Below are positions 19,618 to 25,697 of a stretch of DNA of 34,922 bases, piece after piece. How positions within the stretch are numbered: position 1 is the stretch's first letter; each line of letters starts with the position of its first letter. The translations under genes and the position numbers were made by a program. Source of the DNA: Candidatus Woesearchaeota archaeon (lineage in GTDB: Archaea; Nanobdellota; Nanobdellia; Woesearchaeales; UBA10107); the NCBI GenBank assembly GCA_016935155.1, contig JAFGRQ010000054.1, positions 1 through 34,922 on the forward strand, in the 5' to 3' direction. Below the pieces are notes generated by a model that worked only from the letters and a program-made list of their open reading frames with translations, ran no database searches and had not been told where the DNA came from.

Positions 19618-20748
19618 ATGAAAATAGAATTATTAGTTCAGGGATTTAGAACTTTTGCTCCAGAAGCATCTAACATAACTCTTCAGATTCTTGCAGAAGA
19701 ACTCGTGAAAGAAGGGCACGAAGTTGTCATATTCGGAAATCAAATTCTGAAACAGCCTTTGACTGAGAAAATTTGCGGATACAGAGTAATAAGACAGAAA
19801 TCAGAATATTATGGAAGCAAAATCAAAGGAATCTTGCAATTGCTAAATTATTCGAAATTAATTAAAAGAGAAATAAAAGAATCTGGAAAAGAATTTGATG
19901 TTATTCATAACTTTGGAGCTTCTCCCTTGCTCGCAATCAGAGGAATACGTGCAAAAATGCAATCTAAACACGCAAAACTCATCCAGACGATAAAAGCAAA
20001 TACCAAATATGGATTTTCCTATTTGTTTTCTCCTCTTTTGAATCTGTTTGATGTTGTAACTGTTCCAAATAACATGCTGAAAAGAAAACTTATGAAATTT
20101 GGGCTTTCTGAAAAGAAAATTACTGTTGTTCCTTCCTATATCGACACCAATAAATTCAAACCAATGGACAAGAACAAATTAAAATCAAAATATGGGTTGA
20201 AAAATAAAAAAATTCTGATTTATTACGGCCATATGTCTGAGTTCAAGGGAATTTCTTATTTAATTGATGCGATTGAATTAATTAAAGATGAAGAGTTTAC
20301 TGTGTTGTTTGTAACTGGCTCTGGAGAGAATTACATTGCCCCGTACGAAAAAATAATAAAAGACAAGAAACTCGGAAATAAAATCAAAATAATAAAAACA
20401 CCAGTCAAAAAAACAAAAAACATAGAGGAATATGTTGCAATGGCTGACTTTGTTGTTCTTCCGTATCCTGATTTAACATCTACAGAAGCTCAGCCTTCGT
20501 GCATTCTTGAATCAATGGCTTCAAAAACGCTTGTCATTACGTCTGATTTGCCTGAATTGAGAGAGTTTTTAACAAATAAAGAAGTTATTTTTGCGAAACC
20601 TAGAAATGCTGAAGATTTAGCTGGAAAAATCAAATCTGTGTTGAATGGAAAAATCAAAAAAACAATGATTGAAATAGCTTACAGAAAAGCGAAGCAGTTT
20701 GATTACAGAAAAGTTATTGAGAAATATATTGAAGTGTATAAAAAATGA
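19618..20748 (+). CDS. Family 4 glycosyltransferase
   Basis: LAEELVKEGHEVVIFGNQ...LIYYGHMSEFKGISYLIDAIEL...MADFVVLPYPDLTSTEAQPSCILESMASKTLVITSDLPELREFL. Confidence 0.9.
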   Translation: MKIELLVQGFRTFAPEASNITLQILAEELVKEGHEVVIFGNQILKQPLTEKICGYRVIRQKSEYYGSKIKGILQLLNYSKLIKREIKESGKEFDVIHNFGASPLLAIRGIRAKMQSKHAKLIQTIKANTKYGFSYLFSPLLNLFDVVTVPNNMLKRKLMKFGLSEKKITVVPSYIDTNKFKPMDKNKLKSKYGLKNKKILIYYGHMSEFKGISYLIDAIELIKDEEFTVLFVTGSGENYIAPYEKIIKDKKLGNKIKIIKTPVKKTKNIEEYVAMADFVVLPYPDLTSTEAQPSCILESMASKTLVITSDLPELREFLTNKEVIFAKPRNAEDLAGKIKSVLNGKIKKTMIEIAYRKAKQFDYRKVIEKYIEVYKK

Positions 20749-21164
20749 AAAAGGTAATTACATACGGAACATTTGACACATTACATCATGGACACATAAA
20801 TATTCTAAGACGAGCTAAAAAATTAGGAGATTATTTAATTGTTGGCCTTTCAACGAATAAATTTAACAAAATAAAACACAAGAAATCAGTTTATTCCTAT
20901 AAGCAGAGAAAAGCTATTTTGGAAGGTATAAAATATGTAGATTTAGTAATACCTGAAAATAGTTGGAATCAGAAAATAAACGATATCAAAACACATAAAA
21001 TAGATATTTTTGTTATGGGTGGTGACTGGAAAGGAAAATTTGATTTCTTAAAAAAATATTGCAAAGTTGTGATTTTACCAAGAACAAAGGGAATATCGAC
21101 TACATCAATAAAAAATAAATTAAAAAAGAAAAACAGGAAAATACTCAGTGATATTTCCCTTTAA
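20745..21164 (+). CDS. Glycerol-3-phosphate cytidylyltransferase-like (TagD family)
   Basis: ITYGTFDTLHHGHINILRRAKKLGDYLIVGLSTNKFN...IKYVDLVIPENSWNQKINDIKTHKIDIFVMGGDWKGKFDFLKKYCKVVILPRTKGISTTSIKNKL closely matches the TagD pattern (HxGH and ISTT motifs). Confidence 0.85.
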   Translation: MKKVITYGTFDTLHHGHINILRRAKKLGDYLIVGLSTNKFNKIKHKKSVYSYKQRKAILEGIKYVDLVIPENSWNQKINDIKTHKIDIFVMGGDWKGKFDFLKKYCKVVILPRTKGISTTSIKNKLKKKNRKILSDISL

Positions 21165-22443
21165 CTTCTCCAATGTTGTATGCCCAAAGCACAGACATTA
21201 CTATTCCTGCTCCGACTGCACCCAATATCCAGAAGTAAAATGCCGCATTCCAGCCGAAAGTATCAACTAACCAGCCAGTTCCAACACCAGTCAATGCTGC
21301 ACCAATGTATCCCCAACCGTCAATAAACCCTGTCGCTGATGCTGCTGCTTTTCTGGAACCGAAATCCATCGGCATTGCAGTAACAATCAAAACATGAGGT
21401 CCATATGTTAGGAAACCTATGCATGCCATTACAAACAAGCTAAGCATCCAGTCACCGTGCGGTACTCGAGGGAATACCCAGCAAGCTATTGCCAGCAAAA
21501 ACAGCATTATTGTTGCAATCGGTGCTTTTCTTTTTGCAAAGAATTTTTCTGCCGCATAAGCTGCGAACAACGCTCCCAGAATTCCTGCTAAAGGAATAAT
21601 TAGCGCTTTATATGCTGCTGTTGAAATCGCTGCTTTCTGCACTTCAAACAAATAAGTCGGAGCCCAGTCCATAAACCCATATCTTATTACATTTAATCCA
21701 CACAAAGCAAGTGCGGCTGCCCATATTCTTTTCTTTGTCAGAACTCTAAGCAAAGTAAATTTGAATCCGAGATGTTCGTCTTTACTTATCTTTCCATTCA
21801 ATGTGATTTTTCCGTTCTTATTTTTCTTTTCATGTTCCTCTACCGGAGAAAATCCTGCTTCTTCGGGAGCATTTTTTCCAAAGATAAGCCAATTCATTCC
21901 TATAACTGCACAAACTATTGCGGGAATAAAAAATGCCCATCTCCATCCGAACATTCCTACAACGAAACCAGATAATGCCCACGATGCTGCACTGCCAAAC
22001 TGGTAAGAAGTACCAAGCATTCCTGCACGTTTTGTCCTCATACTTAGAGGGAACCAATTAGCAACAGTTTTTACGCTTGAGCTCCATCCCATCGATTGGA
22101 AAACACCATTCAGCGCCCAAACCAATATCATTGAACCCAAAAATCCGTTTGTGAATCCAAAAATAAGATTCAAAACTGCGGATGTTAAAATTCCCATCGA
22201 AATCATCGTTCTTCCGCCGAATTTATCGCCTATCTGCCCGTTTATGAATTGTCCGGCAGCGTATGTTGCGAAAAATGCACTTAGAACGACTCCCATCGTT
22301 GTCTTTGATACATCAAATTCTTTCATTATTCCTGGAAGCGCTACAGACATGTTAACTCTGCACAGATAATATGCAGCGTATGATATCCATATCGACCAGA
22401 AAATTTTATTTCTCCAGCACTCTATGTTGCGTCCTTCTTTCAT
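21145..22443 (-). CDS. MFS transporter of the organophosphate:phosphate antiporter (OPA/GlpT-UhpT) family
   Basis: YAAYYLCRVNMSVALPGIMKEFDVSKTTMG...GWSSSVKTVANWFP...NVIRYGFMDWAPTYLFEVQ; both Arg-containing motifs characteristic of GlpT-type carriers are present. Confidence 0.87.
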   Translation of the reverse strand: MKEGRNIECWRNKIFWSIWISYAAYYLCRVNMSVALPGIMKEFDVSKTTMGVVLSAFFATYAAGQFINGQIGDKFGGRTMISMGILTSAVLNLIFGFTNGFLGSMILVWALNGVFQSMGWSSSVKTVANWFPLSMRTKRAGMLGTSYQFGSAASWALSGFVVGMFGWRWAFFIPAIVCAVIGMNWLIFGKNAPEEAGFSPVEEHEKKNKNGKITLNGKISKDEHLGFKFTLLRVLTKKRIWAAALALCGLNVIRYGFMDWAPTYLFEVQKAAISTAAYKALIIPLAGILGALFAAYAAEKFFAKRKAPIATIMLFLLAIACWVFPRVPHGDWMLSLFVMACIGFLTYGPHVLIVTAMPMDFGSRKAAASATGFIDGWGYIGAALTGVGTGWLVDTFGWNAAFYFWILGAVGAGIVMSVLWAYNIGEVKGKYH

Positions 22444-22471: not shown

Positions 22472-22888
22472 TTAATTATTTGATGATTGTTCTCTGTCTT
22501 TGATTTTTTGCTTTATTGATGTACTTGACTGCTCATTGTAGTAAGGAAGCATGACTATTCTTCCGCCGAAATATGTCTCAAGTTCTTTCAAGTACGGATT
22601 TCCTATGTGGCTTGTACTCTCCACATGAATATCCGGCTGAATTGCCTTAAGATTATTTAACGGAGAATATTCATTCTGCGGAACCGCACAGTCGACACAT
22701 TTCAGTGCTTGAATCAATCTCATTCTTTCTTTGAAAGAAATAAGCGGCTTTGGTTTTTTTTCCATGACTGCTTCATCTGTTAATACGCCCACAATCAATT
22801 TGTCTCCCAATTTCTTTGCATTCTCCAAGAAAAGCAAATGTCCTTCGTGAAGAATGTCTCCGCAAACATATGCATACACCGTCTTCAT
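22472..22888 (-). CDS. Cytidylyltransferase-like nucleotidyltransferase (HxGH superfamily)
   Basis: VYAYVCGDILHEGHLLFLENAKKLGDKLIVGVLTDEAVMEKKPKPLISFKERMRLIQALKCVD...SSTSIKQKI. Confidence 0.85.
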   Translation of the reverse strand: MKTVYAYVCGDILHEGHLLFLENAKKLGDKLIVGVLTDEAVMEKKPKPLISFKERMRLIQALKCVDCAVPQNEYSPLNNLKAIQPDIHVESTSHIGNPYLKELETYFGGRIVMLPYYNEQSSTSIKQKIKDREQSSNN

Positions 22889-23559
22889 TTTAACAAATAA
22901 CCTCCATTACATACTCCTTGTTTTAATGCGAGTTCTACATCGTTCTTGTATTTTAACAAACGAGTTTCAGCAGTTTCCAGTGCTTTCAATCTCATATTTC
23001 CTGTTTCTTTGTCTCTTTTTTTGATGTCTGCTACTCTTTCTTCGAAACTGATAATTTTACCACCATTGTTAGTCAAATCTGCATAAATGATTACCAGCTC
23101 ATTCCATGATTTTGGAAGCAAAAGATTTACATCTGTACCTTCCAATCCCTTTTTCCAAACATCATATTCTGGCATTTCGAATTGCTCCTTGACTATGAAG
23201 TGGGGCCTTAAATACTGAGCCATCCTGTTTGCCTGTTCTTGCGAATCTGTTATCCCCAAAGCGACTGCATTTTGTTCAAACCAATTTGCTCCGTAAATTT
23301 CGTGGAATGCATGATCTTTTTTATCTTTAGCAAAACATCTTCCAACATCATGGAAATATCCTGCAATTTCCAGCTCATTTTGAAAATTTTCTCCTTTGCC
23401 ATCCATCCGTGTGCTTAATACTTGTGCAATATCCTTCGCTCTGTTTCCTGTCGCAACAAAATGTTCAAGAGCTCTGGCTATCATTCCAAAATTTCCTGAA
23501 TTCTCACGAACAACATTTTCCAAAACCTTAACTGCTTCTTCCGGACGTGTTAGTGCCAT
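22885..23559 (-). CDS. HD-domain protein (phosphohydrolase-like)
   Basis: ELEIAGYFHDVGRCFAKDKKDHAFHEIYGANWFEQ; downstream 'IIYADLTNNGG'. ATG at 23559 preceded by GGAGAAAGG; ATGA-type junction with the next gene. Confidence 0.75.
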   Translation of the reverse strand: MALTRPEEAVKVLENVVRENSGNFGMIARALEHFVATGNRAKDIAQVLSTRMDGKGENFQNELEIAGYFHDVGRCFAKDKKDHAFHEIYGANWFEQNAVALGITDSQEQANRMAQYLRPHFIVKEQFEMPEYDVWKKGLEGTDVNLLLPKSWNELVIIYADLTNNGGKIISFEERVADIKKRDKETGNMRLKALETAETRLLKYKNDVELALKQGVCNGGYLLK

Positions 23560-23560
23560 T

Positions 23561-24103
23561 TTAATTACCTTTCTCCCCATATTGTTTGGAAATCTTTTTG
23601 AATATTTTCTCTGTTGATAATTTTTCATAAAATTCTGGCTGCACTATTTTGCCGCCTATTTTCTTGATAAAGCTGCTTCCTGGAACCTTCTTCCAGTTTG
23701 AACCGAAAACTAAAACAATTTTCGCATTTTTGAATTGATTGTGAATTTTTTTCAAATTTTCAGTTGGGTCCAAATTATCCTGAGTCATAACCATGTCAAC
23801 GCAGTTAAGTGAAGAAACAATTGCTTCTCTCTCTTTCAAATCTGCTATTGGTTCAAATTTGTACGCAGAGACAGCATCGTTTGTAAGAACTCCGCAAATA
23901 TGGAGATCTCCCAATTTATTCGCTGTCTGCAGCAATCTAAGATGACCGTAGTGAAACAAATCAGCCGTTACGACAGAATAAACAATCGTATTAACTTTTT
24001 CTTTAACTATATTTACAATATCTCCTTCTTTAATTCCGGAATCCTTGGGAATTGTAACGCACAACTGCCCGTTAGATTTGTTTGCCCAAACAGGTTTCTT
24101 CAT
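23561..24103 (-). CDS. Fusion: N-terminal AbrB/SpoVT-like swapped-hairpin domain plus HxGH nucleotidyltransferase
   Basis: N-terminus KPVWANKSNGQLCVTIPKDSGIKEGDIVNIVKEK (AbrB-like), then TIVYSVVTADLFHYGHLRLLQTANKLGDLHICGVLTNDAV (cytidylyltransferase-like). ATG at 24103 preferred over 24130. Confidence 0.75.
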   Translation of the reverse strand: MKKPVWANKSNGQLCVTIPKDSGIKEGDIVNIVKEKVNTIVYSVVTADLFHYGHLRLLQTANKLGDLHICGVLTNDAVSAYKFEPIADLKEREAIVSSLNCVDMVMTQDNLDPTENLKKIHNQFKNAKIVLVFGSNWKKVPGSSFIKKIGGKIVQPEFYEKLSTEKIFKKISKQYGEKGN

Positions 24104-24118
24104 ATTACTGGTACCCCA

Positions 24119-24136
24119 CACTAGTACCACTAGTAC
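24119..24136. repeat. Perfect tandem 9-bp repeat (CACTAGTAC)x2, candidate operator
   Basis: Read directly: CACTAGTACCACTAGTAC, between the TATA box (24140-24148) and start of the AbrB-fusion gene; each unit contains the palindrome ACTAGT. Confidence 0.6.
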
Positions 24137-24139
24137 TTG

Positions 24140-24148
24140 TTTATAAAG
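24140..24148 (-). promoter_or_regulatory. TATA box for the minus-strand AbrB-nucleotidyltransferase operon
   Basis: Minus strand CTTTATAAA; predicted start of transcription at about 24117, just past the tandem repeat. Confidence 0.5.
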
Positions 24149-24161
24149 ATTATCCTTTCAG

Positions 24162-24169
24162 TATATAAA
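24162..24169 (+). promoter_or_regulatory. TATA box for the sulfatase-like gene at 24210
   Basis: TATATAAA about 45 bp upstream of the ATG, divergent from the minus-strand promoter. Confidence 0.45.
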
Positions 24170-24209
24170 CAGAAAGGTTTAAAATAAGCCGTAATTCACG
24201 AAAAATAAC

Positions 24210-25697
24210 ATGCAAAAACCGAATATTTTCTGGATTTTAACTGACGGAACAAGGGCTAAACCAGGAAGAGACAAGAGTGGCAGATTCAAGACATATTTTG
24301 ACTTCGACAAGGAATCGATTCGATTCAAGAAAGCAATCACGACAGCAACATCTACGCTGATGTCAATCAGCGCAATTTTGACCGGAAGATTTGCAGCCGA
24401 GCTATATCCTGATTTTAATCATATAAACAAAAGAGGAATAATCTATCCAACATATTTTGACACTTTAATCAAAGAAGGATACAACATAAATTCAGTTGTT
24501 GCCCAAGAGGAAGCGGGCAGAGAATTGTTCAAAGATACGCTGCACATATTTAATCCAACGCAGCCGCAGCCACAAAATGCAAAAGAAACGTACGAAGAAT
24601 TTTTGCAAATGATGAAATCCAAGTTCGACAAATCAAAGCCAAATCTTATGTTTGTTCACTTTGGTAATTTTGAAGACAATAATCGATATTCAAAAAAATT
24701 GCTCGACTATTTAAAAGAACAAAAACTATTTGACGAATCAATCGTTATTTTGTGCTCAGATCACGGATATGTTGATTATGGAAAATTCCACTATCTGGGG
24801 TGGGCATTGCAACCAAGAACTCATTCGTTCTACGTTGACGAAAATTCGTACCACGCTAATTTCAACATAAGACTTCCATCATCGATTTCGAAAGTGAGGA
24901 AAAAAGAAGTTGATATCCCGATTGCGCTGATTGATATGTTCGAAACAATTTTTGATTATTTGGGATTCAAATACGAAAATCCACATAAAAAAGCGCAATC
25001 ACTCAAACCACTAATTGAAGGAAATGACAAAAAAGTTCTTGACAAGTTCATGAACAGAATAATAAGAACGGACAACAGATATTTGCTTCAAAACTATAGA
25101 AAAATAAGGCTGTTAAATGAGTTTGAAAGCCACGTAGTTTCTGGTGTTGAAGAATTGAACAAACTTCCTAAAAATTTCAGGGATTTTTTCAGAAAATCTG
25201 AAGAAGAGGTAAAAAACAACGCATTTAAACAAATAGAGGATAATTTTGAAAAATCAGAACTTTCTAAAATGAAAGGCAAGAAAATCGCAATATACAATTA
25301 CGATTACAAAGATTTGATTGAATTTATGTACAACAAACTCAAAAAACACAACAAAGTTTCTGTTCTTGATTTGAATTTGATAAAAAAGAACTACAAAAAG
25401 TACGACATTATACTGGCAATCATAAACAACCCCATGTTTTACAAATATGGCGGATTGGTTTCATTCTGCAAAAGAAAAGGAATCAAACTGATGCTGGTAA
25501 ATACGTTCTTTGCTGAAACACCATACAAAAAATATCATTATTTCAAGGCATGTTTGAATGATCCTGCAATGAAAGTAAGCAAATACCCTTTCATAATTAA
25601 CTGTGGACTTTATGTTATGCTTTTAATAATAAAATTTTATGAAACGCTTCTTCTGGACACTGAAAGAAACTACCACCCAATCATCAAGAATCTATAA
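24210..25697 (+). CDS. Sulfatase / alkaline phosphatase superfamily protein (LtaS-like catalytic core) with an extra C-terminal domain
   Basis: PNIFWILTDGTR, KAITTATSTLMSISAILTGR, FVHFGNFEDNNRYSKKLLDYLKEQKLFDESIVILCSDHGY; C-terminal 'KGKKIAIYNYDYKDLIEFMYNKLKKHNKVSVLDLNLIKKNYKKYDIILAII' looks like a separate alpha/beta domain. Confidence 0.8.
   Translation: MQKPNIFWILTDGTRAKPGRDKSGRFKTYFDFDKESIRFKKAITTATSTLMSISAILTGRFAAELYPDFNHINKRGIIYPTYFDTLIKEGYNINSVVAQEEAGRELFKDTLHIFNPTQPQPQNAKETYEEFLQMMKSKFDKSKPNLMFVHFGNFEDNNRYSKKLLDYLKEQKLFDESIVILCSDHGYVDYGKFHYLGWALQPRTHSFYVDENSYHANFNIRLPSSISKVRKKEVDIPIALIDMFETIFDYLGFKYENPHKKAQSLKPLIEGNDKKVLDKFMNRIIRTDNRYLLQNYRKIRLLNEFESHVVSGVEELNKLPKNFRDFFRKSEEEVKNNAFKQIEDNFEKSELSKMKGKKIAIYNYDYKDLIEFMYNKLKKHNKVSVLDLNLIKKNYKKYDIILAIINNPMFYKYGGLVSFCKRKGIKLMLVNTFFAETPYKKYHYFKACLNDPAMKVSKYPFIINCGLYVMLLIIKFYETLLLDTERNYHPIIKNL

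Follow-up and report, generated by a model that had tools for sequence, protein, structure and literature searches.

A predicted archaeal enzyme-regulator fusion, joining an AbrB-like hairpin to a cytidylyltransferase, and its palindromic operator at mostly phosphonate-handling operons

Gene organization of the hairpin-CT locus

The stretch of DNA analyzed here (34,922 nucleotides in full, hereafter the window) belongs to a Woesearchaeota archaeon, and the open reading frame that a sequence-only reading had placed at 23561-24103 was borne out at those coordinates. It lies on the minus strand, with an ATG at 24103 and a TAA at 23561-23563, and encodes 180 aa. Residues 1-37 (23993..24103, minus strand; MKKPVWANKSNGQLCVTIPKDSGIKEGDIVNIVKEKV) look like an AbrB-type hairpin, based on an alignment of 23 orthologues, hhalign comparison with archaeal AbrB domains and co-occurrence with an operator. 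The remainder, residues 38-180 plus the stop codon (23561..23992, minus strand), is a cytidylyltransferase (CT) domain according to PF01467, AlphaFold2 and Foldseek, with HYGH at residues 51-54 and a lysine at K82.

The hairpin-CT gene heads a putative operon on the minus strand. Its second gene (22885..23559) encodes an HD-domain protein, which matched PF01966 with 23.1 bits (cut-off 22) and had no NCBIfam match; it starts 1 nt after the CT stop codon, and an earlier in-frame ATG is also present. In genome G141 the gene of a homologue of this HD protein stands divergent close to the end of the operon, and G160 has a weak homologue. The end of the HD gene is overlapped by a second, stand-alone cytidylyltransferase gene (CT2; 22472..22888, minus strand; PF01467, 58.1 bits), which G141, G174 and G409 also have after the hairpin gene. 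The last gene, after a 28-nt gap, encodes an OPA-type (organophosphate:phosphate antiporter) MFS transporter resembling GlpT/PgtP (21145..22443, minus strand; PF07690; TIGR00881 with an E-value of 5e-73, below the cut-off), and G141 has it in the same place. A third cytidylyltransferase gene lies nearby on the plus strand (20745-21164), and matched the glycerol-3-phosphate cytidylyltransferase model TIGR01518 with 188.5 bits against a cut-off of 165.4. Upstream, a divergent sulfatase-superfamily gene (24210..25697, plus strand; PF00884, 42.3 bits) shares the intergenic region, with the operator within its upstream 120 bp, and is possibly co-controlled. Some relatives, for example at locus L032, likewise have sulfatase-like genes on the upstream side of the hairpin gene.

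The predicted operator, TACTAGTGGTACTAGTG on the minus strand, occupies 24119..24135 (core 24120-24134) and is conserved at all 27 hairpin-bearing operons. Its 17-bp pattern is YACTAGT-N2-Y-ACTAGTR, with the core palindrome ACTAGT-N3-ACTAGT, and the consensus of sites with full flanks is YACTAGTNNYACTAGTR. Allowing up to 3 mismatches, 0.04 such sites would be expected in the window by chance. Just upstream we read a TATA-like box, TTTATAAA (24140..24147, minus strand), so that the operator is placed between TATA box and start codon. TATA-like boxes adjoin the operator in most orthologues; in G042 the operator is upstream of the TATA box. Scans of sigma-70 promoters, a promoter type wrong for archaea, and of terminators returned chance levels only.

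The N-terminal hairpin resembles AbrB domains

The main search covered 353 genomes of the order, and 22 of them (23 genes) carried the hairpin together with the CT domain. Conservation is highest in the hairpin (mean pairwise identity 82% for residues 1-20, vs 60% for residues 38-172), and V5, W6, N8, S10, N11, Q13, L14, C15, T17 and I18 are invariant in the alignment of the 23 orthologous hairpins (A4). An AbrB-like pattern had been proposed for the first ~35 residues. This is supported by hhalign, by the next-best matches of a hairpin HMM and by the strong conservation, with scores below the thresholds of curated models. None of the 27 hairpin-bearing members matched Pfam AbrB (PF04014), and NF047400 (MazE_PemI) matched at E<=1 in 7 members, the best being the window protein with 19.2 bits against a cut-off of 50. 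Comparison of the 23 hairpins with 26 archaeal PF04014 domains by hhalign gave a probability of 77% and a score of 24.7, higher than all 300 column shuffles by a thin margin (top shuffle 23.9). When the hairpin HMM was run over the 353 genomes, the next matches after the orthologues, at E-values of 0.009-0.03, included AbrB-PhoU proteins in G237 and G238 and, in G292, a small AbrB protein, together with some unrelated proteins. A PDB profile search placed the AbrB chains 5itm, 2l66 and 5itj at E-values of 0.5-0.7 amid unrelated beta proteins, which alone is not significant. As to a swapped-hairpin dimer barrel, the AlphaFold2 model was a monomer with only three sequences over residues 1-17, and most of these residues had a pLDDT below 50.

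The shortening that had been noticed between IPK and GIKEGD is genuine and conserved: relative to archaeal AbrB domains, the helix between the two strands (IPK...LGIKEGD) is absent from the hairpin in all orthologues. The N-terminus is too divergent to be filed under PF04014, and we describe it as an AbrB-like hairpin. In viral and phage collections CT homologues were present, none of which aligned over the hairpin.

The CT domain and relatives with an altered HxGH motif

The hairpin had been read as followed by a complete HxGH nucleotidyltransferase, and this holds: the CT domain of the window protein scored 45.1 bits against PF01467 (CTP_transf_like; cut-off 21), with F-H-Y-G-H at residues 50-54. 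AlphaFold2 was confident over this domain (block-mean pLDDT 89-98, residues 41-160), and the closest solved structure, both by sequence and by fold (Foldseek), was 5x3d, the Fom1 CyTase domain with HEP-CMP. Fom1 CyTase makes CMP-HEP, and fusion of PEP mutases to PF01467 or MobA-like cytidylyltransferases is common (PMC6697681).

Alignment A3 contains 23 hairpin-bearing proteins, 20 of which retain an intact HxGH motif. Both catalytic histidines are lost in G159 (L119) and G160 (L113), where NYGQ replaces the motif, and the first histidine is lost in G061 (L038), which has NYGH; all three keep hairpin and operator. Since these relatives do so, and many operons contain other CTs, this suggests, as far as sequences can tell, that a regulatory role can outlive catalysis.

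Co-occurrence of hairpin and operator across genomes

Besides the 23 genes of the main search, four CT homologues in the 353 genomes start after the hairpin and thus do not carry it. Genomes drawn from across the phylum contributed three more hairpin-bearing genes, all of other orders (G367, G409, G509), and the hairpin-less G390, and the hairpin profile alone added G284 (L226), a 54-aa ORF containing the hairpin only, with a degraded CT. This ORF is either a minimal autoregulator or a recent pseudogene. Proteins and upstream DNA of G199 and G322 are identical to those of Candidatus Woesearchaeota MAGs JACPBQ010000004 and WJJV01000066, respectively.

The operator was found at 27 of 27 hairpin-bearing genes (23 exact and 4 with one mismatch) and at 0 of 5 CT homologues without hairpin, counts that are phylogenetically non-independent; two losses, the G284 remnant and the genes of other orders provide more independent evidence. 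In 26 of the 27 the distance between the site and the ATG of the hairpin gene is 2-56 bp. In the remaining case, G256b, the hairpin gene comes after one other gene of its operon, and the operator lies 4 bp before that first gene. In the tree, which places four of the five hairpin-less homologues (all but G390), these form two separate, supported clades, G182b with G206 (100/99) and G251 with G255 (97/97), nested among hairpin-bearing proteins, so that a minimum of two joint losses of hairpin and operator is the simplest reading. The G284 remnant keeps the operator 4 bp upstream, and G367, G409 and G509 carry it although they were left out of the motif definition.

As a control, upstream regions of 490 other ORFs were searched with up to 2 mismatches. 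Six matched, all of which share the same sites as divergent or operon-head genes, leaving 0 of 484 unrelated regions with a match. Ordinary AbrB genes were rejected as carriers of the operator (0 of 26 within one mismatch). Genome-wide, TACTAGTNNNACTAGT occurs in 28 of the 353 genomes: 19 with a hairpin-CT gene, G284, and 8 others. In genomes that have the gene, exact sites are confined to the hairpin-CT gene or its own operon, and a broader regulon was therefore rejected. In genomes without a hairpin-CT gene, ACTAGT-N3-ACTAGT precedes an AbrB-type antitoxin gene in G300 (L098) and RHH-type antitoxin-like genes in G150 (L074) and G067 (L091).

Phosphonate context of the operons

Most of the 17 stand-alone hairpin-CT genes stand first in operons that make phosphonates (PepM, Ppd) or take them up (PhnDCE); PEP mutase lies close downstream in 11 of the 17 and PhnD in 4, one having both. 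Reference copies scored above NCBIfam cut-offs for PEP mutase (TIGR02320), phosphonopyruvate decarboxylase (TIGR03297), PhnD (TIGR03431) and PhnW (TIGR03301). In G322 the contig breaks off inside a CT gene of the CT-PepM type. A further CT, either CT-PepM or CT2, is present in many operons. The window and G141 have the second CT plus the OPA-type transporter.

Nine further hairpin-CT genes run on into a PPDK-like dikinase (PF01326, PF00391); after them comes a class-I GATase gene and, at nearly all of these loci, a LicC-like NTase gene as well. These fusions are located at L034:11145-14090, L035, L036, L111, L114, L117, L118, L120 and L285, and the PPDK/PEP-synthase-like part is about 1000 aa long, or 1515 aa including a LicC-like stretch in G219. 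CDP-alcohol phosphatidyltransferase genes are nearby in several loci. These operons, we infer, use CTP to activate a headgroup, either a phosphonate or a phosphate ester, that may be destined for surface lipids or glycans. PEP mutase was not found in the window genome, which is about 90% complete, leaving de novo phosphonate synthesis unsupported there; the ligand of the window protein could therefore come from outside the cell, or be a phosphate ester of another kind.

Predicted regulation and alternative explanations

Comparative genomics links the hairpin to ACTAGT-N3-ACTAGT in the promoters of operons that are mostly phosphonate-handling. Because every hairpin-bearing relative has the same two-part promoter site, we consider it likely from these comparisons that the enzyme is also a regulator, controlling its own operon through the AbrB-like hairpin and the palindromic operator. 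The sequence-only reading had proposed that the hairpin and nucleotidyltransferase together could control transcription, and had named the 24100-24200 region, where the palindrome indeed lies; the contrast of 27/27 with 0/5 gives strong comparative support to this proposal. The hairpin would dimerize and bind both ACTAGT half-sites, which are spaced 9 bp apart. Because the operator usually lies between the TATA box and the start codon, the bound hairpin would block transcription initiation, resulting in autorepression. Repression is less obvious in G042, with its operator upstream of the TATA box. Less certainly, the CT domain would bind CTP together with a headgroup (a phosphonate or a phosphate ester, for example 2-hydroxyethylphosphonate) and, in most relatives, join the two into the CMP-conjugate. 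How tightly the hairpin grips the operator would depend on the ligand state of the CT domain, so that the operon would follow headgroup supply. A CT domain lacking both catalytic histidines would act as a sensor only. A new archaeal family of phosphonate regulators, in which the helix-less hairpin reads ACTAGT-N3-ACTAGT and the CT domain reads phosphonate/CTP status, with pure regulators in G159 and G160, is a real possibility that we put forward tentatively.

The hairpin could also act without any sensing, simply keeping the enzyme level constant by autorepression while the CT domain serves as an enzyme only. Autoregulation of the MazE type is not known to need a metabolite ligand. AbrB-type antitoxins such as E. 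coli MazE do autoregulate at a promoter operator (PMC9477884). The intact HxGH of 20 of the 23 proteins agrees with such a purely catalytic domain; however, the dead CT domains of G159 and G160 and the loss of the first histidine in G061 suggest that a binding role remains, and catalysis looks redundant given the CT-PepM or CT2 genes in many operons. We regard autorepression without sensing as somewhat unlikely, though a serious contender.

In principle, some other protein might use the operator. Since the same double palindrome precedes unrelated RHH or AbrB antitoxin genes in G150, G067 and G300, other proteins can read such a site, and a separate, unlinked repressor might occupy it while the hairpin merely aids oligomerization of the CT domain. 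The joint loss of hairpin and operator on at least two occasions, the retention of the operator by a hairpin-only gene, and the restriction of the site to the hairpin locus in those hairpin-bearing genomes with an exact copy make this improbable. We give even less credence to an RNA hairpin in the mRNA leader that would control translation. The palindrome can pair with itself and is close to the start codon in most cases, but the G042 site, being upstream of the TATA box, should not be transcribed, and the G256b site precedes a different gene. Moreover, both ACTAGT halves are invariant, with no compensatory changes, and single-side mismatches occur.

Comparison with known systems

How DPANN archaea control transcription has been little explored, and in the literature on these archaea we found no description of a hairpin-CT fusion or of a regulator of phosphonate genes. 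The protein, its predicted 17-bp operator and the pathway are directly testable in vitro, and the relatives whose active sites are dead hint at how an enzyme may become a regulator.

NadR joins a helix-turn-helix (HTH) domain to NMN adenylyltransferase, and archaeal RbkR joins an HTH domain to riboflavin kinase. RbkR has been listed as both regulator and enzyme (PMC8305020). As in these proteins, a biosynthetic enzyme and a DNA-binding domain that controls pathway genes are predicted from the sequence to share one polypeptide here. Unlike them, the window protein has an AbrB-like hairpin in place of the HTH domain and a cytidylyltransferase of phosphonate context as its enzyme part, a pairing absent from NadR and RbkR. 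E. coli MazE autoregulates at an operator over its promoter (PMC9477884), and autorepressing AbrB/MazE antitoxins resemble the window protein in having a small DNA-binding hairpin and, at their own promoter, a palindromic operator, binding being predicted in our case; the window system differs from them in having no toxin, in the fusion of the hairpin to an enzyme and in the missing helix between IPK and GIKEGD. Archaeal AbrB-PhoU proteins, among the nearest non-orthologous matches of the hairpin profile, likewise have an AbrB-like N-terminus on a larger domain, but they have a PhoU domain where the window protein has an enzyme, and they keep the full AbrB helix. The CyTase-PepM protein Fom1 of the fosfomycin pathway is the top match by structure and sequence, and has the same pathway context. 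CT-PepM fusions, as in Fom1, adjoin the hairpin gene in many relatives, whereas the CT domain described here stands apart as a paralogue bearing a predicted DNA-binding hairpin, or is joined to a PPDK-like dikinase.
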